Below are positions 10,785 through 26,295 of a DNA stretch of 64,000 nt, in pieces. The first letter of the stretch is position 1, and the number at the start of each line of letters is the position of its first letter. The notes beneath the pieces are model-generated. The model had not been told where the DNA came from, did not search any database, and was given only the letters and a program-made list of their open reading frames with translations. A program made the position numbers and the translations under genes. Origin of the DNA: Yoonia sp. BS5-3 (GTDB lineage Bacteria; Pseudomonadota; Alphaproteobacteria; Rhodobacterales; Rhodobacteraceae); contig NZ_CP150951.2 in assembly GCF_038069655.2 (NCBI RefSeq), positions 992,001 through 1,056,000 on the forward strand, given 5' to 3'.

Positions 10785-10810
10785 GCGCCGGCTATTCAAG
10801 ACCTAAGAAA

Positions 10811-10838
10811 AAGGCCCGCCCTTCGGCGGGTCTTTTTT
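10811..10838 (+). terminator. Rho-independent terminator of mscL
   Basis: CCCGCC-CTTC-GGCGGG stem with flanking pairs, followed by TCTTTTTTG, 25 bp after the mscL stop. Confidence 0.88.
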
Positions 10839-11021
10839 GTTGGCGATTTGCAGCAGCTGCAAAAAAGCAAACCGCATTCCCCAGCGGGGTGGGCCGATAT
10901 GCTTGATCAACGTCGCATAAATACATTGTTTTCTAGACTTTAGGGCAAAAGCGACCCATTCTGATCTTGCCAGTAAACGGCGCCTGTCAGGCGCATCACG
11001 CAAGCTGAACGGACATGGATA

Positions 11022-11588
11022 ATGGCCCTAAAGAATACATCTGAGCGCTACGGCGCGTTTACCAAGCTTTTTCATTGGATCATCGTCATCCTATTTGCCT
11101 GGCAGTTTCTAAGCGGCAATATCATGACCGGTATGCAGCGTGGTGAGCTTGTCGTTGGACTAGATCAAAACGCTTATTACAACTGGCATAAATCCATCGG
11201 CCTTGTTGCCCTGCTGATTGCAGTTTTTCGTCTGATCAACCGCTCAATGGGCCAATTGCCTGCATGGGCCCCGACACTTACTGGCGGTGAAAAGAAGGCG
11301 ATCCACCGGCTTGAGCAGCTGCTTTATCTGGCCATGTTTATCATGCCAATCAGCGGATATATCTATGTGATGGCGGGCGGCTACGGCGTATTGCTGTTCG
11401 GCGAGTGGCGATTGCCGGACCCGATCGGCAAGTCAGAGATGCTCGCCCTGATTGGTCGCTGGGTGCATATTATCGCCGGTTATATTTTGGCCGCCTCTGT
11501 CCTGGGCCATCTGTTCATCGTTTTTCGCCATCAGTTCTTTGTCAAAGACGGGCTGATTTATCGGATGTTGCCTGCGCGCAAGAAATAG
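11022..11588 (+). CDS. Cytochrome b561 family protein
   Basis: 188 residues with four membrane helices. Heme-ligand histidines sit where expected for the prokaryotic b561 family: TKLFHWIIV (His18) and YNWHKSIGL (about His54) in the first half, and GRWVHIIAGY and LGHLFIVFRHQF in the second. Such proteins shuttle electrons between quinol and periplasmic acceptors. It ends 4 bp before the convergent IMPase gene. A second b561 gene lies at 20501-21055. Confidence 0.9.
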   Translation: MALKNTSERYGAFTKLFHWIIVILFAWQFLSGNIMTGMQRGELVVGLDQNAYYNWHKSIGLVALLIAVFRLINRSMGQLPAWAPTLTGGEKKAIHRLEQLLYLAMFIMPISGYIYVMAGGYGVLLFGEWRLPDPIGKSEMLALIGRWVHIIAGYILAASVLGHLFIVFRHQFFVKDGLIYRMLPARKK

Positions 11589-11592
11589 CGCG

Positions 11593-12420
11593 CTAGGCCC
11601 GCCCCGTATTAAGCCCTGCCGCCAGCGCCCCATGCAGTGCCCCATTACTGGCGATAAATGAGCCGCTTTCCAGCATGCCCTGCCCGGGCCAGAGCGGGGT
11701 GATGTAACCGCCGGCCTCTTGCACGATCAGCGCACCTGCGGCGATATCCCAAGCCCCTAAATTACGTTCCCAATAGCCGTCCAGCCGCCCGGCGGCTACA
11801 TAGGCAAGATCAAGCGCCGCTGCCCCCCAACGCCGCAGCCCAGCCGTTTGCGGCATCAGTTTTTCAAGATCCTCAAGGCAATGCGGCAGATAAGTAATCC
11901 GCCCCCCCGCCGGCACGCCCGACGCAAACAAGGCCGATTGCAAGGGCACGTCTTTGCTGACCGTGATCTTGCGCCCATTCAGGTATGCGCCCTGACCTGC
12001 CTCTGCGCTGAAGGTTTCGGATTTTGCCGGATCATAAATAATGGCCGCCAGTGGCCTGTCGCCCTGGTAAAGCGCAATTGAAACCGCCCAATGCGGCAAC
12101 CCTTTGAGAAAGTTGGTTGTCCCATCAAGCGGATCAACAATCCAGCGCAGCCCGTCCTGCGCGCTTGGCCTTGTGCCGGTTTCCTCACCCAGCCAGCCAT
12201 AGCCCGCGAAATGCGCGTTTAAATGATCGCTAATTGTCTTTTCCGCCTGCAGATCCGCATTGCTGACAAAATCGCCCGCCGTTTTTTCTGTTATCGTCAG
12301 ATCAGCCAATTTCCGTGACGCATCCAGCAGGCCTTGCCCCGCCAAACGCGCCGCTTCACCCATGATATGCAGCCGGTCTGATGCGTCTTTGGGCAAGATC
12401 ACGGTCTGTTCAGCCCCCAT
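11593..12420 (-). CDS. Inositol monophosphatase family phosphatase
   Basis: 275 residues. Family motifs are intact: GEETG near 80, WIVDPLDGTTNFLKGLPHW near 97-115 and NLGAWDIAAGALIVQEAGG near 222. These bind the Mg ions and phosphate. Family members hydrolyse inositol-1-phosphate, fructose-1,6-bisphosphate, PAP or other sugar phosphates, and the substrate cannot be read from sequence. The start at 12420 overlaps the end of the upstream dehydrogenase by 11 bp. It is the last gene of the six-gene operon with the GTP cyclohydrolase II-like and RibD-like enzymes, where a phosphatase for a ribityl- or ribosyl-phosphate intermediate would make sense (inference). Confidence 0.9.
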   Translation of the reverse strand: MGAEQTVILPKDASDRLHIMGEAARLAGQGLLDASRKLADLTITEKTAGDFVSNADLQAEKTISDHLNAHFAGYGWLGEETGTRPSAQDGLRWIVDPLDGTTNFLKGLPHWAVSIALYQGDRPLAAIIYDPAKSETFSAEAGQGAYLNGRKITVSKDVPLQSALFASGVPAGGRITYLPHCLEDLEKLMPQTAGLRRWGAAALDLAYVAAGRLDGYWERNLGAWDIAAGALIVQEAGGYITPLWPGQGMLESGSFIASNGALHGALAAGLNTGRA

Positions 12421-13384
12421 AGCGTACCCGGTGGCACAAGGTCGCTGGATCATGCAGGATATCGCCATAGCGCCTTGCCAGATCGCCAAAGGCCGTTTCC
12501 CCCGAAATCAGCGCATCAAGCCGCCCGTCGCGCAGCAATGCCAGCGCTTTGGCCAGCCGCCGCCCATAGTCCCAGCGTGCCGCCTGCGCGGCGGGCACCC
12601 GCCCGACTTGCGAGCTGACCAATTGCAACCTGCGTTGATGGAACCGTCCCCCAAGCGGTGTTTCTGTCATGGCCGCCCCGTACCAGCTGGCCTCGATCAC
12701 TTTTGCTTCGATCCCTGCCAGATCCAACCCCAGCGACAGCCCGGCGCTGTTTGCCGAGGCATGCACAATCACATCAGCGTCCCCGCCAAGCACCTTTTGC
12801 GCGTTCTGCGGCGTTGCGAAGTCACAGCCGAGCGTCCGCGCAAGACTTTCCCGGGTCGGGTCGATATCGATCAGTGTCACCTCTGTCCCCGGCATTTGCC
12901 CGGCCAGATAGCCCACCAGCGCGCCCACAACGCCGCAGCCGATCACCGCAACCCGGTCCCCGATCCGCAGACCTGCGTCCCAGGTGATATTCAGTGCCGT
13001 TTCCATATTAGCCGCAAGGATAGCCCGCTTTGCAGGCACATCCGTAGGGATTGTGAGCGCCATATTGTCCGGCACTGCGAACCGGGTTTGATGCGGAAAG
13101 AGGCTGAAGACCAGCTGGTCCTTGCGCGGCCCGTTTTGCACCCGCCCCACAGCGCTGTACCCGTATTTGACCGGGAAGGTGAAATCCCCCTCCTGAAAGG
13201 GTGCACGCATTGTGTCATGCTCGGCAGGTGGAACCTGCCCGTGATAGACAAGCCGTTCGGTCCCGCGGCTGATCCCTGTATACAGCGTTTCGATCTCAAC
13301 CATATCGGCCTGGGTCGACACGTCAATCTCGCGGCATTCAGCCTGCTGCGCCGCCGTGATCCAAAGCGCGTGCGCCTGCGTCAT
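12410..13384 (-). CDS. Zinc-type alcohol dehydrogenase-like protein (MDR superfamily)
   Basis: 324 residues. GroES-like N-terminal part (YTGISRGTERLVYHG, about 36-50; FPVKYGYSAVGRV near 70) and a Rossmann NAD(P) site (VAVIGCGVVGALVGY near 145, followed by LIDIDPTR). The classical catalytic zinc ligands of alcohol dehydrogenases (Cys near 40, His-Glu near 65) are not evident: SRGTE replaces the CGTD region. It may therefore be a zinc-free MDR reductase. It overlaps the upstream cyclohydrolase by 4 bp. Substrate unknown; context points to reduction or oxidation of a GTP-derived intermediate. Confidence 0.82.
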   Translation of the reverse strand: MTQAHALWITAAQQAECREIDVSTQADMVEIETLYTGISRGTERLVYHGQVPPAEHDTMRAPFQEGDFTFPVKYGYSAVGRVQNGPRKDQLVFSLFPHQTRFAVPDNMALTIPTDVPAKRAILAANMETALNITWDAGLRIGDRVAVIGCGVVGALVGYLAGQMPGTEVTLIDIDPTRESLARTLGCDFATPQNAQKVLGGDADVIVHASANSAGLSLGLDLAGIEAKVIEASWYGAAMTETPLGGRFHQRRLQLVSSQVGRVPAAQAARWDYGRRLAKALALLRDGRLDALISGETAFGDLARRYGDILHDPATLCHRVRYGG

Positions 13385-14496
13385 AGCATATGGCCGGATT
13401 TCAACGCCTTGACTGACAGGTAATTCTGGTTGTGGATATTCCGCCCTACCCGAAGTGGCAATTGTTCGGTGATCGTGATCCCATTGTCATGGAAGGTTTG
13501 CACCTTGGCGGGGTTGTTTGTCAGAAGCCGCACCGACTGGAACCCCAGTTTGGACAGCATCACCGCCGCGATCCGAAAGTCCCGTTCGTCATCCTCATAG
13601 CCGAGCCGGTGGTTTGCCTCGACAGTATCGAGCCCTTTGGACTGCAGATCATAGACCCGCATCTTGTTGGCCAGCCCGATCCCGCGCCCCTCTTGGTTCA
13701 GATATAAAAGAACGCCAGCCCCTTCTTCGCCCATCCGCGCAAGCGCCGCGTCCAGCTGTGGGCCGCAATCGCATTTCAGACTGCCAAGCACATCACCGGT
13801 GAAACAGGCGGAATGCAACCGCGACAACACCGGTTGGTCGGGGTCCGGCTTGCCGATTTCGATGGCGTAATGTTCGCTCATCCCGTCGGGGTCGCGAAAG
13901 ACATGGAGCCGGCCCACATCATGTGTCTCAAGCGGCAGGCGCGCCGCCGCCACCGGGGCCAGAACAGGCGCCAATGCGAGATGATGCAAAGCGTCTTGCG
14001 CTGTGATCGGCACCAGATGCAGCGGATTATCGGCCATATCTGCGGGCAAGGTGAATAGCCCAACGGCTGGTAGCAATTCTGCTTTTTTGACCAGTTTGAT
14101 CGCCGCCTCATGCAGCGCCGTGGCTGCATTTCGTACCAGATGCAGCGGCCCTGTGGGCGCACGCGCTGCGTCAAACTGGGTGTCTGCCTGCTTTTGAAAC
14201 CATTCCAGCGTCGCATCCGCAGGCGGGCAGACCCGCACTGTATCATCGCTGATCAACGCCGCAGTCGCAGGAGCCATGATCGCCTGCCCCCGCTTTGCCG
14301 TCAAAAGCAGCTCAGGCGCACCGAACATGTCGCGTAGCGCATCGAGCCGGGTTTGGGTCAGCGTTTCAATCGCGACAATCAACACGCGGGCACCGTCATG
14401 CGTCAGAAGGGCTGGCAACCCCATCGCGAGATCCCCACGCGCACGGGCAAGCCGTTCAGGCATTGATGGCAAAAGGCAGTCAATATTGGTTTGCAT
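13381..14496 (-). CDS. GTP cyclohydrolase II-type enzyme with N-terminal extension
   Basis: 371 residues. The C-terminal 200 residues are GTP cyclohydrolase II: zinc cysteines in CFTGDVLGSLKCDCG (near 238-252), LYLNQEGRGIGLANKMR near 272 and LLTNNPAKV near 333. The reaction opens GTP to 2,5-diamino-6-ribosylamino-pyrimidinone phosphate, formate and pyrophosphate. The first 170 residues occupy the position of the RibB domain in RibBA fusions but lack a recognisable dihydroxybutanone phosphate synthase acidic motif. It could be the housekeeping ribA, but its neighbours are not the riboflavin genes ribE or ribH. I chose the ATG at 14496; upstream in-frame starts run into the RibD-like gene. Confidence 0.88.
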   Translation of the reverse strand: MQTNIDCLLPSMPERLARARGDLAMGLPALLTHDGARVLIVAIETLTQTRLDALRDMFGAPELLLTAKRGQAIMAPATAALISDDTVRVCPPADATLEWFQKQADTQFDAARAPTGPLHLVRNAATALHEAAIKLVKKAELLPAVGLFTLPADMADNPLHLVPITAQDALHHLALAPVLAPVAAARLPLETHDVGRLHVFRDPDGMSEHYAIEIGKPDPDQPVLSRLHSACFTGDVLGSLKCDCGPQLDAALARMGEEGAGVLLYLNQEGRGIGLANKMRVYDLQSKGLDTVEANHRLGYEDDERDFRIAAVMLSKLGFQSVRLLTNNPAKVQTFHDNGITITEQLPLRVGRNIHNQNYLSVKALKSGHML

Positions 14497-14516
14497 GGCG
14501 GTTTTCTCAGCTTGGT

Positions 14517-15365
14517 TCAATGGGTGTGCCTCGGTCTGGCGGCAGGCGCTGTCGGGGCAGAATGCGTGATTCGATGTTGCGCGTCTGCAGCGGTGCAGCT
14601 TGCAGGCGCCAAGGCACAATCAAACAGAATATCGCTGCCCAGGTTGTAAATGTCCGTCTGCGGTCGGCGCGCGGCGGCCAACGTGCCGACTGGCGACGTT
14701 GTCAGGCTTTGCGGCCCAGAACCAATGAGCAGCGGCGCGACAGCCACATGCAGCCGATCGAGCAATCCTGCTTCAAGGAACTGGGCAATCGTAATCCCGC
14801 CACCTTCAATCAAAATACGTCTGAAGCCCAGTTTTTTGAGCGCGGCAAGGATGTCGTCGGGTGCGATCCAGGGTGCGCGTGGGAGCGTGATCACCTCAAC
14901 CCCAGCGGGCCGCTTGGTATCTGTGGCCTGAATGATGATCCGTCTGGCATCGGTGCAGGTCAAAAGCCGCGCGTCATTTGGCAGCCGTCCGTCCGGGTCA
15001 ATCACAACCCGGGCCGGGCTGGTGCCATCGGCCAATCGGACGGTCAGCTGCGGATCATCATGCAAGGCGGTTTTCACCCCGATCACAACAGCATCGGCAA
15101 GCGCGCGCAGACGGTGCAAATGCGCCAGCCCATCCTGGCCCGATATATCCTGCGCATCCCCGGTTTCCGTGGCGACCCGTCCATCAAGCGATTGGCCGAT
15201 CTGCGCGAAAACCTGGGGCGTTTCGGTGGGCTGCAACAAGGCACCATAAAGGGCTAGCGCCTGCGTCTCGCCAACGCTCCAATCCCCGCAACACAGACAG
15301 TCCGTTCCGGTTTTCACACCCAGAATCCTTTCCCATACTCTGTCTGTTACGTCCAAGTGCTGCAT
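14517..15365 (-). CDS. RibD C-terminal-type reductase (pyrimidine/dihydrofolate reductase fold)
   Basis: 282 residues. The core (about 52-235) matches the RibD reductase domain: FAQIGQSLDGRVAT, LADAVVIGVKTALHDDPQL, RVVIDPDGRLP and ILIEGGGITIAQFLEAGLLD. This domain reduces the ribosyl side chain of the GTP cyclohydrolase II product to ribityl with NADPH. No RibD deaminase domain is fused; the 50-residue N-terminus instead contains a CLCC motif of unknown role. It sits 20 bp upstream of the cyclohydrolase and 1 bp after the methyltransferase gene, so the two GTP-pathway enzymes are coexpressed. Confidence 0.88.
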   Translation of the reverse strand: MQHLDVTDRVWERILGVKTGTDCLCCGDWSVGETQALALYGALLQPTETPQVFAQIGQSLDGRVATETGDAQDISGQDGLAHLHRLRALADAVVIGVKTALHDDPQLTVRLADGTSPARVVIDPDGRLPNDARLLTCTDARRIIIQATDTKRPAGVEVITLPRAPWIAPDDILAALKKLGFRRILIEGGGITIAQFLEAGLLDRLHVAVAPLLIGSGPQSLTTSPVGTLAAARRPQTDIYNLGSDILFDCALAPASCTAADAQHRITHSAPTAPAARPRHTH

Positions 15366-15366
15366 T

Positions 15367-16140
15367 TTATTCTCCGGTCAAGTGCGGTATCGCCAGAATA
15401 TCGGTATGACCAATATATCCGGTAGTCTGCGCAACTGTCCTGCGGCGCATTTCCGCCCACGTAAGGGCATCCTTATACCCGGCCTCAGCCGCCGCAGCGC
15501 CGATCCCGGCGATCAATTCATCATGAAGCGCTGTATCATCTGCCCCCAACTGCCAGGGGCTATCACCCCGATGCACATCAAAGCCATGCGCCGCAAAGAT
15601 CTGGGCGGTTTCATCTGCTGAAATGGGCCCGAGTGCTGCGCCAATGCCTTTGTCGCTACGCTGATGCTGGTTGAATGCCGCTGTCACGCCCGCATCATCC
15701 GGGCTGGCTGGGGACCAGCGCATCTGACCATTATAGTTGATCGCCGCATAAAAAGGTATTTTCGCAGCCGAGAGCCGCGCCGCCAACGCATCCACCCAAT
15801 CACGCGGCATCAGATCAAGCAGGGCCGAGGCCGTGACCAGCCCCACCCCATCCAGTGGCAGATCGGCAATATTACCCAAATCGAACAAAACCTGTTCCGA
15901 TTGTGGATGTTTTTCCCCTGCAATTTGCAATAATGCAGCATCGCCATCGACAAACCGCCAGCCCCAAGCGGCTGGGGCGTGACCGGCAAAGGCCCGCGCG
16001 GTTGAACCTGTGCCACTGCCAAGATCAAGCACAAGCGTCTCCTGACCGGCTGCAGCCACAGTCTGCGCCAGTAAAGCAGCATCCCGCGATGCATGATCTA
16101 CAGGTTCACGTAACGCCAACCAATCAGGAGAAAAGCCCAT
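15367..16140 (-). CDS. Class I SAM-dependent methyltransferase
   Basis: 257 residues. Rossmann-type SAM-binding motif LVLDLGSGTGSTARAF at about 36-51, an acidic second motif (FVDGDAALLQIA) and ASALLDLMPRDWVDAL near 103. The substrate is unknown. The gene begins 1 bp after the PTPS-like gene and ends 1 bp before the RibD-like gene, so it is inside the pyrimidine/pteridine-type operon. C-, N- or O-methylation of a GTP-derived ring is a reasonable guess, as toxoflavin-type clusters also pair a GTP cyclohydrolase II with a methyltransferase. This is inference. Confidence 0.85.
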   Translation of the reverse strand: MGFSPDWLALREPVDHASRDAALLAQTVAAAGQETLVLDLGSGTGSTARAFAGHAPAAWGWRFVDGDAALLQIAGEKHPQSEQVLFDLGNIADLPLDGVGLVTASALLDLMPRDWVDALAARLSAAKIPFYAAINYNGQMRWSPASPDDAGVTAAFNQHQRSDKGIGAALGPISADETAQIFAAHGFDVHRGDSPWQLGADDTALHDELIAGIGAAAAEAGYKDALTWAEMRRRTVAQTTGYIGHTDILAIPHLTGE

Positions 16141-16141
16141 A

Positions 16142-16537
16142 TCAGATATCCGCCTCGTACCAACCGCGCGCCATATGGCTTTCTTCCAATGATACTTTGA
16201 TCCGGCACACCCGCCCGTTATCGCCCAGACCCGTTGTCTTGGCCGTATCGCGCAGCTGTTCCCAGATGTAATGGCACAGGAATTCTGTTGTGGTGATTTT
16301 GCCCTTGAATGCGGGTACCTCGTCCAGATTGGCGTATTTCAGCGGCTTGAGCGCATTTGCCAATGCCTCAAGCGCCAGCCCCATATCGACTACAAGCCCG
16401 TTTTCATCCAGGTCTTTGGTGTAAAAGGCCGCATCCACGACAAATGTCGCCCCATGCATTCCCTGCGCCGGGCCGAATACCGGCGATGGCAGGGAATGGG
16501 CAATCATGATGTGATCCCTGACTTCAACTGCAAACAT
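16142..16537 (-). CDS. 6-pyruvoyl-tetrahydropterin synthase family protein, degenerate metal site
   Basis: 131 residues, normal family length. HIMIAHSL near residue 10-17 gives the first zinc histidine, and MHGATF near 28 corresponds to the usual H-G-H pair with the second His replaced by Ala. The catalytic Cys normally a few residues before HGH is absent. TTEFLCHYIWEQL near 90 and VSLEES near 118 match the family. It therefore looks like a PTPS/QueD homologue that has lost part of its catalytic apparatus or changed chemistry. The ATG at 16537 was chosen; a TTG four codons upstream is possible. It is the first gene of the six-gene operon. Confidence 0.85.
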   Translation of the reverse strand: MFAVEVRDHIMIAHSLPSPVFGPAQGMHGATFVVDAAFYTKDLDENGLVVDMGLALEALANALKPLKYANLDEVPAFKGKITTTEFLCHYIWEQLRDTAKTTGLGDNGRVCRIKVSLEESHMARGWYEADI

Positions 16538-16626
16538 ATATTTCCCCAATCCTATCGATCTTTTTGAACATGAAGCTATCGTTCCTTTGTCTCATGGCGG
16601 CAAGCCGCACCAGCAGAGGGCACATA

Positions 16627-17385
16627 TTGACCAAACAGATGCAAACGCTTTCCTGTCTGAGCTGGAACATCCATCGCTGCCGCGGCAATGACGGGGTGAT
16701 AGACCCTGCCCGGACCCTCGCCACCCTGCAAGCCGAGGCTTTGGACAGCCCCATCGACGCCCTGATCCTGCAAGAGGCCGATGAAGAGATCCCGCCCCAT
16801 ACCGGCTTGCTGGACATTGATGCTGTCGCGGCGGCCACCGGCCTGCGTTACATCCATGACGATCCCGCCCATCGCTGGTCCGACGGCAGCCATGGTTTTT
16901 TGGGCACGATCATCTTTGTGCATCCCGACATCACAGTGGACCGGATCACATTGTTGGATTTGCCGGGTCGTTGTCATCGTGGCGCTGTCATCGCGGACCT
17001 GACCCGTGATGGGCGCCGCTTTCGTTTGATCGGAGTGCATTTGTCGCTGATGCAAGCCCTGCGCTGGGCGCAGTTGCGCACGATCTGCCAGTTTATGTTC
17101 CGCAACCCGCTGCGCCCAACCATCCTGATGGGTGACTTGAACGAATGGCGCCCTTGGGGCGGTCTGGCTTTGTCCCCCCGCTTTTTGGGCACGACATTCA
17201 CGGGTCCGGCTTTGCCAAGTTTTCCAATCAACCGCCCCTTTTTGCCGCTGGACCGTGTCTTGGTCACCGCCCCCGCGACCGTTCGGTCGGCTGAGGTGCT
17301 GGATGGGCCGGGTATCCGTATGACTTCGGACCACCGCCCCTTGCGCGCGCTTGTGGATTTGGGTGAGGGGGCCATTTCGCCTTAA
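16627..17385 (+). CDS. Endonuclease/exonuclease/phosphatase family protein
   Basis: About 252 residues. The EEP fold is shown by LSCLSWNIHRCRG (Asn) at the start, DALILQEADEE (catalytic Glu near 45), RLIGVHLSLM, ILMGDLNEWRPWGG (Asp-Asn near 165) and MTSDHRPLRALVDL (Asp-His) at the C-terminus. Substrates range from DNA to phospholipids, and no signal peptide is obvious. The start is uncertain: the TTG at 16627 has AGAGGG at good spacing, while the ATG at 16639 begins the conserved sequence. It is divergent from the PTPS-like gene and convergent with opgG. Confidence 0.87.
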   Translation: MTKQMQTLSCLSWNIHRCRGNDGVIDPARTLATLQAEALDSPIDALILQEADEEIPPHTGLLDIDAVAAATGLRYIHDDPAHRWSDGSHGFLGTIIFVHPDITVDRITLLDLPGRCHRGAVIADLTRDGRRFRLIGVHLSLMQALRWAQLRTICQFMFRNPLRPTILMGDLNEWRPWGGLALSPRFLGTTFTGPALPSFPINRPFLPLDRVLVTAPATVRSAEVLDGPGIRMTSDHRPLRALVDLGEGAISP

Positions 17386-17393
17386 GACTGTCA

Positions 17394-18890
17394 TCACACG
17401 CCCCCGTCCCGCGCCCGGGTCCAACGGTGCAACCATACAGGGCTAAGCGCTGTTCCATCGCTTGCCCGCAGACTGAACCGGATTTCAGCTGCATCCACTG
17501 TGTCCGCCGCAAAAAGAAACGTCACCCGGGTCGCGGACCCATCGGGCAACGCGAATGCGCTGATCCCCAGCACATCTGCCCCTTCGCTGGCCGAGATATC
17601 GGGCACCACCCCTTCAGCGGTGGTGCCCACATCCAGAACAAAGCGCCGGTGTCCCGGCCTGTCATGCTCGCGCCCGCTGCGCCCCTGCAAAATCGGGGGT
17701 AGCCCCCCCAGATCAGGTGCAGCCAATGTCCAGTTCAGCCGGTAGCTATAGCGGTAAGTTCCGCCCGCCAGCAGCGGCTGCGCTGGTCGCCAAAACGCGA
17801 CGATATTGTCCAAAAATTCCGTTTGCGTCGGCAATTCGACCAGCATGACCGCCCCCGCCCCCCAAGGTTCCAAAGGGGTCACGGTGGCCGAGGGCCGGTC
17901 GTGATACCGCGCTTCGGTATCCTGAAAATCAGCATAGCTGCGCGGGGTCTGGTAAAGACCAAAGCGTCGCGGCGCATCATCTACAAAGGCCGAGCTTTCC
18001 ACATTGCGGGGGTTGGCGACGGGCCGCCAGATGATCTCGCCCGCGCCGTTCTCAATCACCAGCACATTGCTATCGTGTACCCGCGGCCGGAAGTCATCGG
18101 ACACCGTCGAAAGCATCGGGCCCTTCAGATACATCGATGTCAGCGGCGCGATCCCGATATCGGCGATATCGACGCGCGGAAAGATCGTTGTTGCGATCTC
18201 CATCACAGTGTCTGTGCCTGGATGCAAAACCAGATCCAGATGCGCCGACAGCGATGGGCTGTCGATCACCCCTTCGATCCGCACACTATCCCCGGTCGCA
18301 GGATGCAGACGCAGATGGACAAAGCGAGGGAACTCTTCAGGCGCGCCGCCCCCAGTGCCTACAGCGACCGTCCGCGCCGAGAGCCCGTAAGCCATCGCCG
18401 TTCCAATCGCCCGGAAATAGCTGGCCCCTTGCATGACCAGCACCTCATCCATCACGTCTGGTGCATTCAAAGGATAGCGCAACCGCATTCCTGAAAAGCC
18501 GGCGCCGGGGCTTTCAGTTGGCACGTCATCAAAATACCGCGCATCGAAATCGAACAGCGACGGGCTGAAGGCGATATCGCGCAAACCGGCTTCGGTCATT
18601 TGATCCACCTTCAGAGGATCCGGAAAATAGAGCCCCGGTGGGAGCAGGTCCAAGGCAAACCGGTCCCCATGCGGCAGCATCGCCGATTGACCAACCAAAG
18701 GCCGGATCGCCCGGAATTGATTATAGGTCAGATCGGCAAATGGCGGGGCAAGCGGGGTTGTATTTGGCTGATAGGGCCGGCTTTGTAGCGCTTGAGCGAT
18801 CTCAAGCATACTGCCCTCTGTTTGACTGCGGGCAAGCCTGGGCAAACAGGCCAGAGCGACAGTGCCTTTGAGCAAGGTGCGGCGGTTCAT
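17394..18890 (-). CDS. opgG: Periplasmic glucan biosynthesis protein OpgG/MdoG
   Basis: 498 residues. A Tat-type N-terminus (MNRRTLLKGTVALACLP) targets it to the periplasm. The MdoG family body follows: DLTYNQFRAIRPL near 54, GASYFRAIGTAMAYGLSARTV near 155 and MYLKGPM near 260, with the C-terminal immunoglobulin-like domain containing FVLDVGTTAEG. It acts after OpgH in the formation of branched osmoregulated periplasmic glucans. The start at 18890 overlaps the opgH stop by 4 bp and begins exactly at the twin-arginine signal. Confidence 0.93.
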   Translation of the reverse strand: MNRRTLLKGTVALACLPRLARSQTEGSMLEIAQALQSRPYQPNTTPLAPPFADLTYNQFRAIRPLVGQSAMLPHGDRFALDLLPPGLYFPDPLKVDQMTEAGLRDIAFSPSLFDFDARYFDDVPTESPGAGFSGMRLRYPLNAPDVMDEVLVMQGASYFRAIGTAMAYGLSARTVAVGTGGGAPEEFPRFVHLRLHPATGDSVRIEGVIDSPSLSAHLDLVLHPGTDTVMEIATTIFPRVDIADIGIAPLTSMYLKGPMLSTVSDDFRPRVHDSNVLVIENGAGEIIWRPVANPRNVESSAFVDDAPRRFGLYQTPRSYADFQDTEARYHDRPSATVTPLEPWGAGAVMLVELPTQTEFLDNIVAFWRPAQPLLAGGTYRYSYRLNWTLAAPDLGGLPPILQGRSGREHDRPGHRRFVLDVGTTAEGVVPDISASEGADVLGISAFALPDGSATRVTFLFAADTVDAAEIRFSLRASDGTALSPVWLHRWTRARDGGV

Positions 18891-20482
18891 GCGGGCTCTC
18901 CATCCAGCAGCGGGATCAACACCGGAGCCATGATCAAAGGCCCAAAGATCGGGGCCAGCCATAGCGCGCTTATCGCTTGGCTATTTAGCGCCAGCAGCAA
19001 GATGGCAAGGCCAGCCGCAGCCTCGGGCCAGCCTGCGGGCAGCCGCCAGGTGCCACGTCGCCCTGATTTCCAACCGCAATCGCGCCCCATGCAAATCGAC
19101 AGCACCGCCGCGCTGTGCCGCAATGAAATCAGCGGGCCGACCAATGTTGAAAGCCCCAGCTCTGACAGCCACGCGCGCAGGATGACCCGGCGCCGCTGCC
19201 CGGTCCGCGCCGCTGGCAACCGATCCGCAAGCGCGCAGAGCTTTGGGATAAACAACACAATCGCAACAACCAGGATCGCACCATAATGCGTCACGGACAC
19301 GACCCCAAAGCTAAGCAGCGCTAGCAAAATCAGCAAGATTGGCGCCGATAGATAGCTGAAAGCGCCCATGATCAGGTGCAAACGGCTTAGCGGATGCAGC
19401 CCAGCCGCTGTGCAAATGCGCAGATGTTGCAAATTGCCCTGACACCAACGCCGGTCGCGGCGAAAAAACTCATGCATGGTTTGCGGTGCATCTTCGGCGC
19501 TACCGCCCACTTCGGTAGCCAGCTCAATGTCCCAGCCTGCGCGGCGCATCCAGGCCGCTTCGACAAAGTCATGGCTCAGGATATCGCCGCCAAAAGGGGC
19601 TTTGCCGGGCAACTGGGGCAAATGCGCTGCCGCGCGGAAGGCTTTGATCCGCATAATCGCGTTATGCCCCCAATAATTGCCTGCTTTGCCAGAGGCCGCC
19701 ACAAAACCACGCCCAAAGATGCGCCCCAGCAGCCGCGACGACACCCGTTGATGCCGCCCGAACCGTGTCCGTCCCGGCACCATGGCGATCGCCGCCTGCA
19801 AGAGCCCGGTCTGCGGGCGCTGTTCAAGCCCCCAGATCAAGTTTCGGGTGCAATGGACGCTCATTCGGCTATCGGCATCCTTGACCAGCATAAAGTCAAA
19901 ATTCTCTCCTTCTGCGGTCAGCCAATCAGCAATGTTACCCGGTTTTTTCCGGGTATTTGCAATGCGGCGCCGATAGCTGATCTGTCCCGCGTCAATGAGC
20001 CCTGCAAGCGCCTGCTGTTCATCCTTGATTTGATCAGCGCCAGACGTGTCCGACAAGACAAAAACCCGTGTATGATCGGCGATACCAGCTGTCTTCAGCC
20101 CATTGGCAAAGCTAGCCAGATAACGCGCAAGCGGTGCTATGTCTTCGCCGCAGACGGTGATCAGAATGGCTGTGCGGTTTTGCGGCACCCATGCCCGGGG
20201 TGCATCAATAACCATCACGCGCTTGCTCAAAAGACCCAGCAGCGCCGTCGCCGCCCCGCCTGATATCCATAACGCATTTATCAGGATCAGCCCTGCCACA
20301 ATGATCGCCGGAATATGCCACTGCTCCACCGCCATCGCGAAACTGGCCGTGATAGACAGGGCAAAGACCAGCGTCAGGATTGCAAACCCCGGCAAGCCCG
20401 GGCCTACGATACGTGGCCGGGCCGCTTTGGGCGCAAGCCGATCCTGCCCTTTGGCAAGGGTTTGTGACGATGCAATCAGCAA
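18887..20482 (-). CDS. opgH: Glucans biosynthesis glucosyltransferase OpgH/MdoH
   Basis: 531 residues, shorter than the about 850-residue E. coli OpgH, which has long N- and C-terminal extensions. Several membrane helices flank a GT2-type catalytic domain: LVKDADSRMS (DxD-like, near 195), SHDFVEAAWMRRAGWD (near 305) and FFRRDRRWCQGNLQH (the QxxRW-like motif near 345). It polymerises UDP-glucose into the beta-glucan backbone and exports it. The only usable start appears to be TTG at 20482, since an in-frame stop lies just upstream. It precedes opgG with a 4-bp overlap. Confidence 0.92.
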   Translation of the reverse strand: MLIASSQTLAKGQDRLAPKAARPRIVGPGLPGFAILTLVFALSITASFAMAVEQWHIPAIIVAGLILINALWISGGAATALLGLLSKRVMVIDAPRAWVPQNRTAILITVCGEDIAPLARYLASFANGLKTAGIADHTRVFVLSDTSGADQIKDEQQALAGLIDAGQISYRRRIANTRKKPGNIADWLTAEGENFDFMLVKDADSRMSVHCTRNLIWGLEQRPQTGLLQAAIAMVPGRTRFGRHQRVSSRLLGRIFGRGFVAASGKAGNYWGHNAIMRIKAFRAAAHLPQLPGKAPFGGDILSHDFVEAAWMRRAGWDIELATEVGGSAEDAPQTMHEFFRRDRRWCQGNLQHLRICTAAGLHPLSRLHLIMGAFSYLSAPILLILLALLSFGVVSVTHYGAILVVAIVLFIPKLCALADRLPAARTGQRRRVILRAWLSELGLSTLVGPLISLRHSAAVLSICMGRDCGWKSGRRGTWRLPAGWPEAAAGLAILLLALNSQAISALWLAPIFGPLIMAPVLIPLLDGEPA

Positions 20483-20500: not shown

Positions 20501-21055
20501 CTAGGAGTTTTTGCCAACTGGTGGCCACATCCGGGTGAAAATCCCGTCGCGGCGTATCAGGCCATGAAACGCGGCCGCCCCGATATGCATCAAGATCAGT
20601 GCGGTAAAGGCGTAGGCCCCATAATAATGCACCGCTTTTGCAAATTCGGCCAAGGCTTCGGATCGCGGCACAAAAGAGGGGATGCCCATCGCATCAAGCG
20701 CCTCAATCGGGAAACCACCGGCCCGCACCCGAACATAACCGGCCAGCGGCATGATCAACAACAGCGCATAAAGGCCGATATGGGTGGCATGCGCCGCAAA
20801 TTCTTGAATTTTCGGCAACTCCACCGGTTTCAGCTGGGGTGGCCGACGCCAGCGGTAAATCGCGCGGACAAAAAATAGGACAAGTAACAAGGTGCCCACA
20901 TTCTTATGGGTGATGAAGAGGAAGTTTTGCGTACTACGTTCTAATTCAGCGCGGACCATCAGGAAGCCGATTGGAATGATACATAAAATCAAAATTGCCA
21001 TAATCCAGTGGATCACACGTGCTGGGACGCGGTATTTTTGCAAAGGCTCGGGCAT
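20501..21055 (-). CDS. Cytochrome b561 family protein (second copy)
   Basis: 184 residues with four membrane helices. Heme-ligand candidates are ARVIHWIMAI (His near 15), LFITHKNVGTL (near 48), AVHYYGAYAF and LILMHIGAAAFHGLI. It is only distantly like the copy at 11022-11588. It ends 18 bp before opgH, so it may be the first gene of an opgH-opgG operon, although a link to glucan synthesis is not established. The start at 21055 was chosen because upstream in-frame sequence does not look like a b561 N-terminus. Confidence 0.9.
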   Translation of the reverse strand: MPEPLQKYRVPARVIHWIMAILILCIIPIGFLMVRAELERSTQNFLFITHKNVGTLLLVLFFVRAIYRWRRPPQLKPVELPKIQEFAAHATHIGLYALLLIMPLAGYVRVRAGGFPIEALDAMGIPSFVPRSEALAEFAKAVHYYGAYAFTALILMHIGAAAFHGLIRRDGIFTRMWPPVGKNS

Positions 21056-21145
21056 GTCAAGTACTCTCTTTTTTGTCGGTCTCGAGAATAGTACGTCTGG
21101 CTGGCGCGTATTATTCTCAGGAAATGTCGTTTTAGAGAAAATCAC

Positions 21146-21907
21146 ATGAAAAACCCAACGATCCATAGCGCAAGCCCCCCCGGGAAACCCGGGCTGGCCG
21201 TTATTGCCGCCAAGCCTGCCGGAAAATTCGGCGTGGGCGCGGGTGTTGGGCTGCTTGTAATTTTTGCTGCGTGTGAGCTGCTTTTCGGACTGATGACTGC
21301 CCTACCCGGCGCCGTTTTCGTCAGCGCGATATTCTATGGCATCGCCGTTCTCATCGGGATGCGCGGTCTGCACCAGGGTTACCCCCATGCCGCCCTTGGC
21401 CTTTGCAACCTCGTCACGTTGGTGCGCCTTGTGATCGTGGCCATCCTTTGTGCCGCCCTGCTGGGTGCGATCAGCCCTACCTGGACAACTTTCGCATTGG
21501 CCAGCTTTGCCCTGGCGCTGGACGGCATTGATGGTTGGCTGGCCCGCAAACAAGGTCTTGCCTCGGATTTTGGTGCCCGTTTTGATGTTGAGGTGGATGC
21601 CGCGTTCGCCCTGATCCTGGCTATGTATGCCGCCACAAATGGTGCCGCCGGGCCTTGGGTCATCCTGCTTGGCGTGCCGTATTACCTGTTTGTCTTCACG
21701 GGCCGCTATCTGCCCTGGCTAAACGGGGCGCTGCCCCCGCGCTTTAGCCGCAAGGCTGTCTGCGTCTTCCAGATCGCCGCATTGATTGCCTTGCAGGTCC
21801 CGTTGTTGGCCGATGGCCGACTGGACCCCGTTATCATCGCGGTTGCCGCTGCGCTGGTCTGGTCGTTTGGCCGCGATATCCTGTGGCTGTGGCGGACAAA
21901 AATATGA
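21146..21907 (+). CDS. CDP-alcohol phosphatidyltransferase family protein
   Basis: 253 residues, about six membrane helices. The complete CDP-alcohol phosphotransferase signature, D-G-x2-[A/D]-x3-A-R-x8-G-x3-D-x3-D, is seen in DGIDGWLARKQG with FGARFDVEVD near residues 128-152. The enzyme moves a phospho-alcohol group from a CDP-activated donor; whether the acceptor is glycerol, inositol or another alcohol is not predictable. It begins a five-gene plus-strand operon, with the next ATG overlapping its stop. The housekeeping pgsA is elsewhere (52969), so this copy is likely specialised. Confidence 0.9.
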   Translation: MKNPTIHSASPPGKPGLAVIAAKPAGKFGVGAGVGLLVIFAACELLFGLMTALPGAVFVSAIFYGIAVLIGMRGLHQGYPHAALGLCNLVTLVRLVIVAILCAALLGAISPTWTTFALASFALALDGIDGWLARKQGLASDFGARFDVEVDAAFALILAMYAATNGAAGPWVILLGVPYYLFVFTGRYLPWLNGALPPRFSRKAVCVFQIAALIALQVPLLADGRLDPVIIAVAAALVWSFGRDILWLWRTKI

Positions 21908-23556
21908 ATAGCTGGCGGAACCGTCTGAACATGCGGGCTATTTTGATGGGCACTTTGGCGCTGTTTTTGCTGCATCTGGTGCTGATCCAGCCCAATCATC
22001 CAGCCGCCATGGCCTGGAACGCAGTTTTGCTTTTTCCGCTTGAGCTGCCTGCGATTGTCTTTGGCCTTATCGCATTGGGTCGGTCCCGCGCCGGACTGAT
22101 CCTGCGTGTCTTGGTTATTCTCATTTTGAGCGTCATCGCTGTTTTGAAAACCGCCGATTATGTGATGTTCACCTCACTTAGTCGCGGGTTCAATGTGGTG
22201 GCTGATCTGCCGCTTGTGGGCTCATTCTATGACCTGATTGTTGGGACCATGGGGCAATTTGCAGCGATTTCCGCTGTCCTTGCTGCGCTGCTGATTGTTG
22301 TATTGCTGATCGTCGGTCTGTGGTGGGCCACAGGGTATTGGACCCGGCTGGCCCGGCCCAAATCGGTCGCAAGTGCGAGTACCATTGCCGCGCTTATCTG
22401 TGTCGCAGTTAGTGTCGCCGATATCGGTACACGCATGGGCCGTTGGGATACAGGTTTCCCCTATCCCGGCACCGCCTTTACCGCCCGCGTCGGGGTTGAA
22501 CGAGTGCAAACCGCCCGCGCCACCTTGCGCGACCTTCGCGCATTTCAAGAAGCCGCACAGAATGATCCTTTTGCAGGCCAGACGGGCCTGTTTGATCTTG
22601 TGGACCGGGATGTGCTGGTTGTTTTTGTCGAAAGCTATGGGCGTACCAGCCTGGACACCCCGCTTTACGCTGATCTACACCGCGCGACGCTGACCGCTGC
22701 CCAATCCCAACTTGAAGGGTTGGGATTGGGCATGTCATCCACTTTGCTGGTGTCGCCCACACAAGGCGGGCAAAGCTGGCTGGCCCATGCCAGTTTTGCA
22801 AATGGCCTGTGGGTGTCAGGGCAAACCAGTTACCGCGCAGCGCTGCGCAGCGAACGGCAAACCTTGTTTCATCTGGCCCAAGAGGCCGGTTTTCGCACGG
22901 CCGCAGTGATGCCCCAGATCACTCTGGACTGGCCCGAGGCGCAGTTTATGGGTTTTGACACAGTGCTTGCCGCTGATGATCTGGGCTATGCGGGCCTGCC
23001 CTTCAACTGGATCACGATGCCCGATCAGTTCACCTTTGGCGCCATGGACCGCTTGCTGCGTACGGAGCGCCCGGATGGCAAGCCGCTATTTATCCAAATG
23101 GCGCTTGGCTCTTCCCATGCGCCTTGGGTCCCTGTCCCCGACCTGATTGCCTGGGACGATCTAGGAGACGGCAGTGTCTTCAATCCGATTGTTGAGGCTA
23201 GCGATCCGCCGCATATCGTATGGCAGGATAATGACCGGGTGCGCGATCAATACCGGCTGGCAGTGGATTACGCTTTGCAGACGGTCTTTGCCTATGCCGC
23301 GCTGCATGCCGAAGATCCACCCTTGATGATCATCATCGGCGATCATCAGGCCGCAGGTTTCATCGCGCTGGATGAACGGCCACATGTCCCGATGCATATC
23401 GTCGGCCCGCCCGATCTGGTTGATCGGTTATCGGATGCTGCCTTTGTCCCAGGGCTGATCCCTGATGCGACCGACGCACCCCGCCGCATGGACCTGATGC
23501 GTGGCCATATTTTGCGCGCGCTTTCATCGCAAATGCTGGCAGAGGTGGCCGAATGA
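21904..23556 (+). CDS. Sulfatase-fold membrane enzyme (LTA synthase/alkaline phosphatase superfamily)
   Basis: 550 residues. Five or so N-terminal membrane helices (residues 10-170) are followed by a periplasmic alkaline phosphatase-superfamily domain: VLVVFVESYGRTS near 238 is the metal and nucleophile region (Glu then Ser/Thr), GSSHAPW near 402 and IIIGDHQ near 482 provide later metal ligands. Members of this architecture transfer phosphoglycerol or phosphoethanolamine from lipids to envelope glycans. The start ATG at 21904 overlaps the previous stop (ATGA), and the downstream gene also overlaps by 4 bp. Likely role: envelope decoration in concert with the neighbouring enzymes. Confidence 0.83.
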   Translation: MNSWRNRLNMRAILMGTLALFLLHLVLIQPNHPAAMAWNAVLLFPLELPAIVFGLIALGRSRAGLILRVLVILILSVIAVLKTADYVMFTSLSRGFNVVADLPLVGSFYDLIVGTMGQFAAISAVLAALLIVVLLIVGLWWATGYWTRLARPKSVASASTIAALICVAVSVADIGTRMGRWDTGFPYPGTAFTARVGVERVQTARATLRDLRAFQEAAQNDPFAGQTGLFDLVDRDVLVVFVESYGRTSLDTPLYADLHRATLTAAQSQLEGLGLGMSSTLLVSPTQGGQSWLAHASFANGLWVSGQTSYRAALRSERQTLFHLAQEAGFRTAAVMPQITLDWPEAQFMGFDTVLAADDLGYAGLPFNWITMPDQFTFGAMDRLLRTERPDGKPLFIQMALGSSHAPWVPVPDLIAWDDLGDGSVFNPIVEASDPPHIVWQDNDRVRDQYRLAVDYALQTVFAYAALHAEDPPLMIIIGDHQAAGFIALDERPHVPMHIVGPPDLVDRLSDAAFVPGLIPDATDAPRRMDLMRGHILRALSSQMLAEVAE

Positions 23557-24461
23557 TCCCCCCTATCTATTGGCGCATCGGGCAGCTTGCCTTCACGGCT
23601 GGGCTGATTGCCCTTCTCTGGCGCACAACCGATGGCCCCCAGATTTTTCGGATATTGCAACAGGCCCAGCCAATCTGGTTAGCGGCGGCCATCGGCGTGC
23701 TGCTTTGCCAGACGGTCCTTTCCGCTTGGCGCTGGCAAATCACCGCCGCCCAATTGGGTCAAAAGCTACCCCTTGGCTATGCTGTGAAAGAGTATTTCAT
23801 GTCACAAATTGTCAACCAGGCCCTTCCCGGCGCTATCATGGGTGATGCCGCCCGTGCGGTGCGCGCCCGTGCCCAAGCCGGGCTAGCGGCAGCAACCCAG
23901 GCCGTCCTATTCGAACGGCTGGCGGGGCAAATTGCCATGTTCATGATGATGAGCATCGCGTTTTTGATCACCTTCACCGCGCAAGGCGGGCTGACATGGC
24001 CGCCGGAATTTGCAGCGCCTATCGGCAGTGCAATCGCAGTTGGGATCGGGGTTGGCGGGGCAATCGCCTTGGGTTCACGCTTTCCAAATCTTATCGGCCA
24101 ACGGCTGGCGGCTTGGATTGCACCGATGTACCGCGCAGTTTTGGCAAAACATGTCTTGCCTGCGCAAATTGGGCTGGGTCTGGCAATTACGCTATGCAAT
24201 CTGGCCGCCTTTGGACTGTGCGCATGGGCTGTCGGGGTGCATCTATCGCTCGCGGCCATCTGCGCCATTGTGCCTGTGATCCTTTTCTCAATGCTGATCC
24301 CGTTCACGATCAGCGGTTGGGGCGTCCGTGAAGGCGCAGCGGCCGTTCTGTTACCACTTGCCGGCACAACACCCAGCGAAGCCGTCGCGGCCAGCGTCAT
24401 ATTTGGCTGTGCGCTCTTATTGGCCGTTCTGCCCGGCCTTATTGCGGTGATCCTGAAATGA
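23553..24461 (+). CDS. Lysylphosphatidylglycerol synthase-type transmembrane protein (UPF0104)
   Basis: 302 residues, seven to eight membrane helices. It resembles the AglD2/MprF flippase-domain family: SAWRWQITAAQLGQ near 50, VNQALPGAIMGDAARA near 88 and the C-terminal PFTISGWGVREGAAAVLLPL near 250. There is no aminoacyl-transferase domain, so it is a membrane-only member, often linked to export or membrane insertion of lipid-linked molecules. It is coupled by 4-bp overlaps to the sulfatase-fold and GT4 genes on either side. Confidence 0.88.
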   Translation: MIPPIYWRIGQLAFTAGLIALLWRTTDGPQIFRILQQAQPIWLAAAIGVLLCQTVLSAWRWQITAAQLGQKLPLGYAVKEYFMSQIVNQALPGAIMGDAARAVRARAQAGLAAATQAVLFERLAGQIAMFMMMSIAFLITFTAQGGLTWPPEFAAPIGSAIAVGIGVGGAIALGSRFPNLIGQRLAAWIAPMYRAVLAKHVLPAQIGLGLAITLCNLAAFGLCAWAVGVHLSLAAICAIVPVILFSMLIPFTISGWGVREGAAAVLLPLAGTTPSEAVAASVIFGCALLLAVLPGLIAVILK

Positions 24462-25528
24462 ATAAATGCAAAGCAGCCTTCGCCATCCCCGGCGATATTG
24501 AGACACTGACCGGCGGGTATATCTATGACCGCAAGGTCCTGACCCGTTTGCGTGCGCAGGGCCACGACATATCCCATATCGCTTTGCCCGGCACCTTTCC
24601 TGAGCCACCGGCCGCAGATATGGATGCAGCCTTTGCAAGCTTGGGCCATCTGCCAGCAGATCGTCCGGTGATCATTGATGGACTTGCCTTTGGCGCGCTT
24701 GATCCAACCCGCGTGGCCGCGATCAAAGCCCCGATAGTCGCGCTGATCCATCATCCGCTTGCAAAAGAAAACGGCCTGGCACCCCTGCGCCAAAAACAGC
24801 TTCATGAGACCGAGCGCGCCAATCTAGGCCATGCGGCACAGGTCATCGTGCCCAGCCCGCATACCGCTGCGATCCTGACCGAAGAATACAACGTCCCGCT
24901 GAGCAAGATCAGCGTTGCCCGGCCGGGCACAGACCAACCACACGATGTGGAAAAACCGGCCCATCCGCCGCTTCTTTTGTCGGTTGGCATTCAATTGCCG
25001 CGCAAAGGGCATGATGTCCTGCTCAAGGCCTTAGCCGCTATCCAAGACCTGGATTGGCAGGCAAAAATTGTCGGTTCGGCACTAGACCCTGCCTTTGCCA
25101 ACGCGCTGGAAGAGCTACGGCAATCTCTTGGTTTGGCGGATCGGGTCGTGTTGACCGGCAAGATCGATCAAGAGGCCCTTGGCGCGCTTTATCGCAAGGC
25201 CACAATATTTGCGCTGGCGACCCGGTATGAGGGTTATGGCATCGTCTTTGATGAGGCATTGGCCCATGGTTTGCCCATCATTTCATGCGCAGCGGGGGCG
25301 GTGATTGACACAGTCCCGAAAGGTGCTGGGGTGCTTGTGCCGCCTGACGACCCGGACGCCTTTGCCGCCGCCCTGCGTCGCGTTTTAACCGAACAGACAA
25401 CCCGCCATGACATGGCAATGGTCGCGCGCACCGCTGGGCGCAACTTACCCGGTTGGGACGACACCGCCGAAGTCTTTCAAGCCGCCTTAGCGCGGATCAC
25501 CCAATCGCAAAGGGCCACTACAACATGA
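24458..25528 (+). CDS. Glycosyltransferase family 4 protein
   Basis: 356 residues, GT-B fold. The N-terminal domain includes TGGYIYDRKVLTRLRAQGHD (family-like glycine-rich start). The C-terminal domain has LLLSVGIQLPRKGHDVLLKAL near 166, RVVLTGKIDQEALGALY near 225 and the donor-binding ATRYEGYGIVFDEALAHGLP segment near 250-270, with the retaining GT4 E-x7-E pattern. It transfers an activated sugar to an unknown acceptor. ATGA overlaps join it to both neighbours. Confidence 0.92.
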   Translation: MNKCKAAFAIPGDIETLTGGYIYDRKVLTRLRAQGHDISHIALPGTFPEPPAADMDAAFASLGHLPADRPVIIDGLAFGALDPTRVAAIKAPIVALIHHPLAKENGLAPLRQKQLHETERANLGHAAQVIVPSPHTAAILTEEYNVPLSKISVARPGTDQPHDVEKPAHPPLLLSVGIQLPRKGHDVLLKALAAIQDLDWQAKIVGSALDPAFANALEELRQSLGLADRVVLTGKIDQEALGALYRKATIFALATRYEGYGIVFDEALAHGLPIISCAAGAVIDTVPKGAGVLVPPDDPDAFAAALRRVLTEQTTRHDMAMVARTAGRNLPGWDDTAEVFQAALARITQSQRATTT

Positions 25529-26295
25529 TCCCCGCATCCCAACCGACAGCGTTGACCAAGACCCATCTGGCCGCCATCGGGCGATCACTGGATATTTATT
25601 ATCGTGATAAAGCGCGCACCGCGCGGATGGACCAATTGAATGCGCAATTCATTCGCAAGGGGGGACTGGCCTTTGATATCGGGGCGCATGTCGGCGACCG
25701 CATGGGTAGCTTTCTGCGCCTTGGCGCAAGATGTGTCGCCGCCGAGCCGCAACCGCATGTCTTTCGCGCGCTTCGATTGCTCTATGGGCAATGCGATCAG
25801 GCACATCTGCACCGAACAGCGGTGGGCGCCACTACCGGAACCGTTGATCTGAAAATCAACAGTGACAATCCAACGATCAGCACAGTCTCAACCGACTTAA
25901 TTGCTGCGGCGCAAACAGCGGATACATGGCAGGGGCAGGTCTGGGATGCAGAACTACGTGTCCCGATCACAACGCTTGATCAGTTGATGGCTCAATATGG
26001 GCTGCCGGATTTTGTGAAAATTGACGTCGAGGGGCATGAGCTTGCAGTGCTTGAAGGGCTGAGCCGTCCAATGCGGGCATTGTCATTCGAATTCACGACG
26101 ATCCAGATTGATGTCGCCTGCGCCTGCCTTGAGAGGCTGGCCGCACTTGGGTGCACCCGATTTAACTACAGTCTGGGCGAAGAGCATCGTTTGCAGGATC
26201 ACGGCTGGATGGACACCAAGGGGTTGGGTGCAGAGCTACAGGCGCTACCTGCCGCCGCAAATTCCGGCGACGTGTTCGCTGTGTGGGAAGACTGA
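25525..26295 (+). CDS. FkbM family methyltransferase
   Basis: 256 residues. A SAM-binding site (GGLAFDIGAHVGDRMGSFL near 48-66), AAEPQPHVFRAL near 75 and the FkbM motif FVKIDVEGHELAVLEGL near 165-182 are clear. FkbM enzymes O-methylate sugars or polyketide-type hydroxyls. The ATG at 25525 overlaps the glycosyltransferase stop; a longer in-frame start inside that gene is less likely. It is the last gene of the five-gene envelope operon, where methylation of a glycan is plausible. Confidence 0.9.
   Translation: MIPASQPTALTKTHLAAIGRSLDIYYRDKARTARMDQLNAQFIRKGGLAFDIGAHVGDRMGSFLRLGARCVAAEPQPHVFRALRLLYGQCDQAHLHRTAVGATTGTVDLKINSDNPTISTVSTDLIAAAQTADTWQGQVWDAELRVPITTLDQLMAQYGLPDFVKIDVEGHELAVLEGLSRPMRALSFEFTTIQIDVACACLERLAALGCTRFNYSLGEEHRLQDHGWMDTKGLGAELQALPAAANSGDVFAVWED

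Follow-up and report, generated by a model that had tools for sequence, protein, structure and literature searches.

The subject of this study is a six-gene operon on the minus strand of a 64,000-nucleotide stretch of DNA from Yoonia sp. BS5-3 (the whole stretch is termed 'the window' below), together with the larger locus of which the operon is a part. A preliminary description had placed at positions 11593-16537 a contiguous operon encoding a protein that resembles 6-pyruvoyltetrahydropterin synthase (PTPS), an S-adenosylmethionine (SAM) methyltransferase, a RibD-type reductase without a deaminase ('RED'), an enzyme of the GTP cyclohydrolase II type (GCHII), a dehydrogenase of the medium-chain dehydrogenase/reductase (MDR) superfamily and a phosphatase of the inositol monophosphatase (IMPase) family. 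All six genes are present at that position and on that strand, and their spacings (computed from start codons that fit those of relatives, and read from the PTPS-like end to the IMPase end) are 1, 1, 20, -4 and -11 bp, in agreement with the gaps or overlaps of 20 bp or less given earlier. Five of the family assignments are borne out by Pfam, and that of the MDR dehydrogenase by its predicted fold:

16142..16537, minus strand: PTPS-like protein, SCO6650 (PDB 3d7j) subfamily (PF01242, E 9e-21; alignments, residue scan)
15367..16140, minus strand: class I SAM methyltransferase (PF13649, E 1e-6; motif VLDLGSGTG)
14517..15365, minus strand: RibD_C-type reductase (RED), no deaminase (PF01872, E 5e-42; solved-chain comparison)
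13381..14496, minus strand: GCHII-type enzyme, dedicated second copy (PF00925, E 2e-55; zinc Cys motif, RVYDLQ)
12410..13384, minus strand: MDR-superfamily dehydrogenase (Rossmann motif GCGVVG; predicted structure)
11593..12420, minus strand: IMPase-family phosphatase (PF00459, E 3e-62; motifs DPLDGTTNF, WDIAAG)

The GCHII reading frame opens at 14619, and the ATG at 14496 was taken as its start, in agreement with relatives. RibD_C is the sole domain of the RED protein, whose nearest solved chain (6p8c) is named as a 2,5-diamino-6-ribosylaminopyrimidinone 5'-phosphate reductase; RED reaches no NCBIfam cut-off, and the NCBIfam models do not separate the archaeal from the bacterial type.

The complete six-gene set recurs in nine of 13 other loci fetched from the host's order, a recurrence that places the operon beyond chance. 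The check proposed earlier, whether all six genes occur together in relatives and in the same order, came out positive in these nine loci for co-occurrence, but more than one order was observed. A fixed six-gene composition did not survive comparison either: the remaining four loci lack the IMPase gene, two of those also lack GCHII and one of the two lacks RED as well, and more generally the IMPase is present in the locus for only part of the relatives and an in-cluster GCHII is often missing. Among the named loci listed, the closest by identity of the PTPS-like protein come from Roseobacter sp. CCS2 and Yoonia maricola, at 95% and 94% respectively.

A second GTP cyclohydrolase II, apart from riboflavin synthesis

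The first two enzyme families of riboflavin synthesis are the same as those found here, and the operon might accordingly belong to the ordinary riboflavin pathway or form an overflow branch of it; were the genome to hold no other copies, as the preliminary description had allowed, it would simply be that pathway in split form. The rest of the genome argues otherwise. There are three places that match PF00925 and three that match PF01872; a full RibD, with RibE and RibBA, lies away from the operon (in locus L043), and another GCHII with the Cys motif is found in L042. The working housekeeping GCHII seems to be a separate gene at C1:450421. By eye, the GCHII half of the RibBA protein (L043:11920-13131, near 2538000 of genome sequence C1) is without the zinc Cys motif.

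The same separation is seen across the host's order, where at least one GCHII of this kind is present in all 148 sampled genomes and two are found only in genomes that bear the operon. Of the 14 genomes in which the operon methyltransferase has a strong match (E 3e-36 or better; there are 21 matches at E 0.001, of which seven are weak), 12 hold two copies, as against none of the other 134; Fisher values for these counts ignore kinship. The other two of the 14 have no GCHII in their locus. In a GCHII tree of 38 rows (21 operon copies, from 22 named loci, and 17 housekeeping copies), a single branch with support of 97/93 separates the operon from the housekeeping copies, and the window protein groups with the other operon copies. 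The window GCHII is a second copy that belongs with the operon. Because an Rfam scan of positions 9000-28000 gave no match at the gathering threshold, that region holds no flavin mononucleotide riboswitch. Duplication of riboflavin genes was rejected on the strength of the separate RibD, RibE, RibBA and GCHII together with the two-GCHII pattern in the 148 genomes, and a side branch of riboflavin synthesis is a very improbable account of the operon; the earlier proposal of a dedicated, GTP-derived pathway apart from riboflavin is supported.

Both GCHII and RED keep their motifs (zinc Cys, RVYDLQ, ERDF, SLDGRVA and DDPQLTV). At the switch position of the GCHII motif the window enzyme has Tyr (RVYDLQ) and that of Streptomyces locus L050 has Met (RAMALQ); this residue decides between a deformylated and a formylated product, Met being the mark of the SCO6655 type, which forms a formamidopyrimidine (FAPy). 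That hallmark Met is absent from the window GCHII.

The PTPS-like protein and its dehydrogenase partner

The protein described as PTPS-like does belong to PF01242, the fold family of PTPS and QueD, but the catalytic Cys, the third zinc His and the Asp-His pair found in those enzymes are absent from it, as judged from an alignment to QueD chains, from alignments of nine and 14 rows and from a residue scan. Its best solved relative is SCO6650 (PDB 3d7j; E 2.8e-31), with PTPS and QueD chains at 1.1e-4 or weaker; the structure of SCO6650 has been solved, and we know of no function assigned to it. Nine aligned relatives show no variation at His14, His28, Thr82-84, Glu85 and Glu119, nor at Ala30 (in place of the third zinc His), Ala24 (in place of the Cys) and Tyr68 (in place of the catalytic His). 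If the residue roles that we take PTPS and QueD to have (zinc His, Cys, Asp-His, and the Thr and Glu of the pterin site) are carried over to these positions, the Thr and Glu of the pterin site have been retained while the catalytic residues have been lost. The aligned QueD chains also carry Ala at the Cys place; these are presumably Cys-to-Ala variants. The protein is the most conserved of the locus (95% identity to L054, as against 55-83% for the others), and this conservation, combined with the loss of catalytic residues, indicates at the level of sequence a strong constraint without PTPS chemistry.

A role in queuosine synthesis was rejected, because no QueC was found in the genome above the cut-off (a single partial match scores 20.6 bits, where 22 is required) and the genome has no PF01242 match besides the window protein. 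A role in folate supply was rejected as well: GTP cyclohydrolase of type IA has no match in the genome and FolE2 (GCHY-1) is encoded elsewhere, at C1:2584516, so that dihydroneopterin does not depend on the operon.

The MDR protein matches no Pfam family at E 0.001, and it falls outside the BchC family (TIGR01202), its best NCBIfam model, with 46 bits against a cut-off of 291. Its predicted structure (predicted local distance difference test score 93.5) has the fold of MDR alcohol and polyol dehydrogenases and is nearest, by a small margin, to the polyol dehydrogenases; no Cys is invariant across 15 aligned rows, and the protein is apparently zinc-free.

Among 398 genomes of the host's phylum, the PTPS-like family (at E 1e-45 or better) and the MDR family (at E 6e-111 or better) occur in an identical set of 27; six more genomes have a weaker PTPS-like match, at 2e-10 to 1e-8, and 142 genomes have some MDR match at 1e-8. 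By their coordinates the two genes lie no more than 130 bp apart in 26 of the 27, whose loci were all viewed (25 fetched, the window and L033); in the window they share one operon, with three genes between them. Of 20 plasmid records with a PTPS-like gene, ten regions were viewed, and in eight of them the MDR gene adjoins. The other two, L051 and L214, both from Streptomyces, have the PTPS-like gene without the MDR, which weighs against a strict partnership and against the interpretation developed below. The MDR-free, SCO6650-type PTPS genes of those two regions lie near cupin genes and genes of the metallo-beta-lactamase fold.

The 16-gene locus and its relatives

The operon is part of a 15-kb locus of 16 genes (11022-26295), all of which have same-order relatives in L054 and L057. 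The preliminary view of the operon as a pathway unit was therefore correct as to its dedication but too narrow, since membrane, glycan and redox genes belong to the same locus:

11022..11588, plus strand: cytochrome b561 (79%, 77% and 71% identity in L054, L057 and L067)
16564..17385, plus strand: endonuclease/exonuclease/phosphatase (EEP) family protein (near the operon in 17 of 66 full-length named loci)
17394..18962, minus strand: MdoG paralogue (PF04349, E 3e-136; 36% to the genome's other MdoG)
18887..20482, minus strand: MdoH paralogue, glucan glucosyltransferase (NF003962, 476.8 bits, cut-off 328)
20501..21166, minus strand: second cytochrome b561 (family match, relatives)
21146..21907, plus strand: CDP-alcohol phosphatidyltransferase (family match; presumed catalytic motif present)
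21883..23556, plus strand: sulfatase-superfamily protein (VESYG, GGQSW, GDHQ, mostly invariant in 18 aligned relatives)
23553..24461, plus strand: flippase-like LPG_synthase_TM protein (family match)
24458..25528, plus strand: family 4 glycosyltransferase (GT4; family match)
25453..26295, plus strand: FkbM family methyltransferase (family match)

The catalytic motif of the phosphatidyltransferase is what we take to be that of its family. The sulfatase-superfamily protein has hydrophobic N-terminal segments, by eye only; against solved structures it gave nothing at E 0.01 (a profile search returned one match, at E 0.063, not taken as real), and a phosphoglycerol- or phosphoethanolamine-transferase-like subtype is a guess. 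The EEP protein likewise gave nothing at E 0.01 against solved structures. The window GT4 gene lies about 8 kb from the operon on the opposite strand; in many relatives a GT4 gene stands between the PTPS-like and methyltransferase genes. Promoter matches (9, versus 7.1 in shuffles; standard deviation 2.7) were not clearly above expectation, and terminator-like matches (26, versus 16.9; standard deviation 4.6) were somewhat above it. Elsewhere in the window, an open reading frame (ORF) at 8015-9466 resembles, by eye, a nicotinamide phosphoribosyltransferase.

Gene content was counted by BLAST (E 1e-8), a procedure that may now and then pick up a GT4 or similar gene that lies within 10 kb but is unrelated; counts based on hidden Markov models, which gave overlapping ORFs a single label and therefore came out lower for several genes, were not used. 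The named loci are the best 80 of at least 569 relatives, less 14 shorter than 20,290 bases, and the resulting sample of 66 therefore leans to close kin. It holds MDR in 66, methyltransferase in 66, RED in 64, GT4 in 55, CDP-alcohol transferase in 47, sulfatase-type protein in 44, GCHII in 41, IMPase in 39, flippase-like protein in 38, FkbM in 37, cytochrome b561 in 34, MdoH in 20, EEP in 17, YceI in 14 and MdoG in six. For the 25 loci of the phylum sample, the counts are MDR 25, GT4 25, methyltransferase 23, RED 21, CDP-alcohol transferase 12, MdoH 12, flippase-like 11, GCHII 10, FkbM seven, cytochrome b561 six, MdoG six, creatininase six, sulfatase-type five, YceI four, and IMPase and EEP none.

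These counts bear on the suggestion that the soluble pteridine operon has no relation to the membrane and glucan genes, which would form an operon of their own and lie beside it by chance. The two gene sets are divergent in the window, and 19 of the 66 named loci and 12 of the 25 phylum-sample loci have no gene of the membrane set (CDP-alcohol transferase, sulfatase-type, flippase-like) within the stretch, as would suit such an accident. At least one such gene is nevertheless present in 47 of the 66 and 13 of the 25; the CDP-alcohol transferase gene adjoins that of MDR or GCHII, in varied orders, in rhizobia, in members of a different class of the phylum and on actinobacterial plasmids; and one Streptomyces and one Microbacterium plasmid have the MDR-PTPS pair flanked by CDP-alcohol transferase, GT4, methyltransferase and flippase-like genes. 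Control DNA (11 stretches, 190.6 kb, a control small beside the loci) gave GCHII, RED and PTPS matches only, with no membrane, GT4, MdoG/MdoH or cytochrome genes. Chance adjacency is on this evidence unlikely.

The locus is patchy, being present in two of 13 genomes of the host's genus, and related gene sets are scattered in other proteobacteria and some actinobacteria. In L089, from the gammaproteobacterium Pseudohaliea rubra, the arrangement is Rhodobacterales-like; this and the location of several copies on plasmids are hints of horizontal transfer. A YceI-family gene lies directly 3' of the CDP-alcohol transferase gene at L178:11460-12164 and L183:11595-12188 (by Pfam for L183), and a gene of the PfkB/ribokinase type adjoins the cluster at L045:9997-10887 and L053:5834-6754.

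A creatininase-type gene is found in the locus at L180:14335-15282, L181:14765-15538, L190:3556-4329, L176:5398-6285, L185:5075-5989 and L050:13645-14436 (called by Pfam for L181, by record annotation for L050, and by motif or BLAST for the others); it neighbours a Tyr-type GCHII in L180, L181 and L190, and a Met-type GCHII in the Streptomyces copy. The creatininase family includes a known FAPy deformylase, so that such a gene suits a GCHII product, and it is possibly a deformylase or another amidohydrolase of the pathway. Its presence in some relatives, together with the motifs kept in GCHII and RED, speaks against a further alternative, in which riboflavin-type enzymes have been re-used on another substrate that has no pteridine ring, such as a modified phospholipid or sugar-phosphate head group. 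The far divergence of the PTPS-like and MDR families from characterised enzymes would fit that alternative, for which we see only a small chance.

A proposed pathway and its known counterparts

The interpretation preferred here, to which a probability of roughly one half is attached, is that a dedicated locus, with the operon as its soluble half, makes a pyrimidine or pteridine from GTP and places the product at or beyond the inner membrane. Gene content, the dedication of GCHII, the PTPS-MDR partnership in the phylum sample and the extended locus are observed directly; the reactions, their order and the product are what we infer. The probable product of the locus, of about 16 genes, is a pteridine-like molecule that derives from GTP, is methylated, bears a sugar and is moved to the membrane or beyond. 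GCHII would open GTP to 2,5-diamino-6-(5-phosphoribosylamino)pyrimidin-4-one, RED would reduce the ribosyl to a ribityl chain with no deamination, and the phosphate would be removed by the IMPase or by a phosphatase encoded elsewhere. The apparently zinc-free MDR could then oxidise a hydroxyl of the ribityl chain with nicotinamide adenine dinucleotide; if it acts at C2', ring closure between the resulting ketone and the 5-amino group could yield a dihydropterin without GTP cyclohydrolase I. The PTPS-like protein may hold the ring instead of carrying out PTPS chemistry, the methyltransferase and GT4 may decorate the product, and the CDP-alcohol phosphatidyltransferase, flippase-like and sulfatase-superfamily proteins may anchor it on a lipid, flip it across the membrane and perhaps pass it on, the acceptor in some bacteria being a glucan from the dedicated MdoG and MdoH. 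The pterin step and the lipid attachment are conjectural, and the glucan link is the weakest of all.

Cytochrome b561 suggests a redox role. Carried to its end, this would make the product a membrane- or glucan-attached redox cofactor of a new class, a methylated and glycosylated pterin formed via GCHII, reductase and polyol oxidation, and not GTP cyclohydrolase I, carried on a phospholipid, flipped, in proteobacteria moved to a dedicated periplasmic glucan, and served by cytochrome b561 as electron partner; so specific an elaboration is doubtful. Should the chemistry proposed for the pathway hold, pterins would have a second biosynthetic route, and many environmental bacteria would possess a pterin that is exported or bound to the membrane.

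A different product would be a free pyrimidine or pteridine natural product, secreted and similar in kind to toxoflavin or pseudoiodinine (the former having been drawn upon in the preliminary description), with the membrane genes serving only export or protection. The pseudoiodinine cluster comprises seven psd genes, with GCHII, a RibD-type reductase, methyltransferases, a sulphatase-modifying factor and a WD-40 protein (PMC9911603). GCHII, a RibD-type protein and methyltransferases are common to the toxoflavin and pseudoiodinine clusters and the locus, as a secreted product would lead one to expect. The 16 locus proteins nevertheless match, beside GCHII and RibD, neither of the families expected of such a cluster (no Pfam match at E 0.001 to sulphatase-modifying factor or WD-40), RED is without a deaminase, and the locus has PTPS-like and lipid genes besides a phosphatidyltransferase, GT4 and MDR that have no counterpart among the seven psd genes. 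Identity with a toxoflavin-type cluster was rejected, and a freely secreted product is judged improbable.

The locus has other counterparts in part. In riboflavin synthesis, reduction can precede deamination (PMC7017516); the archaeal and fungal type of riboflavin start resembles the operon in having a GCHII-type step followed by a deaminase-free reductase, but the operon is separate from the genome's own riboflavin set. Osmoregulated periplasmic glucan synthesis has paralogues of its MdoG and MdoH in the locus, both of which reach their family models; the locus pair is however a second, divergent copy, with 36% identity to the genome's other pair as against 67-77% (MdoG) and 55-63% (MdoH) to L028, L054 and L057.

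Another close counterpart is the SCO6650/SCO6655 cluster of Streptomyces, reportedly noted in print in 2006-2008 with no function given, whose diagnostic combination, a single locus with genes for a PTPS-like protein, MDR, GT4 and a methyltransferase, is found in the window. On a plasmid of S. fungicidicus, that cluster likewise has a PTPS-like protein without PTPS chemistry, MDR, GT4, methyltransferase, CDP-alcohol transferase, a flippase-like protein and GCHII. It differs in the Met that its GCHII has for Tyr and in an adjoining creatininase gene, and it gave no match to RED, MdoG/MdoH, FkbM, the sulfatase-type protein, cytochrome b561 or IMPase, all of which the window has. A search of the open-licence literature found no published account of the cluster, and as far as was searched the MDR partnership and the link to lipid, glucan and cytochrome genes had not been described before. 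We regard the locus as a further form of GCHII-started pathway; the tie of the SCO6650 family to one MDR family across the phylum sample, and to lipid-carrier, flippase, glucan and cytochrome genes, makes a testable pathway out of an orphan protein.

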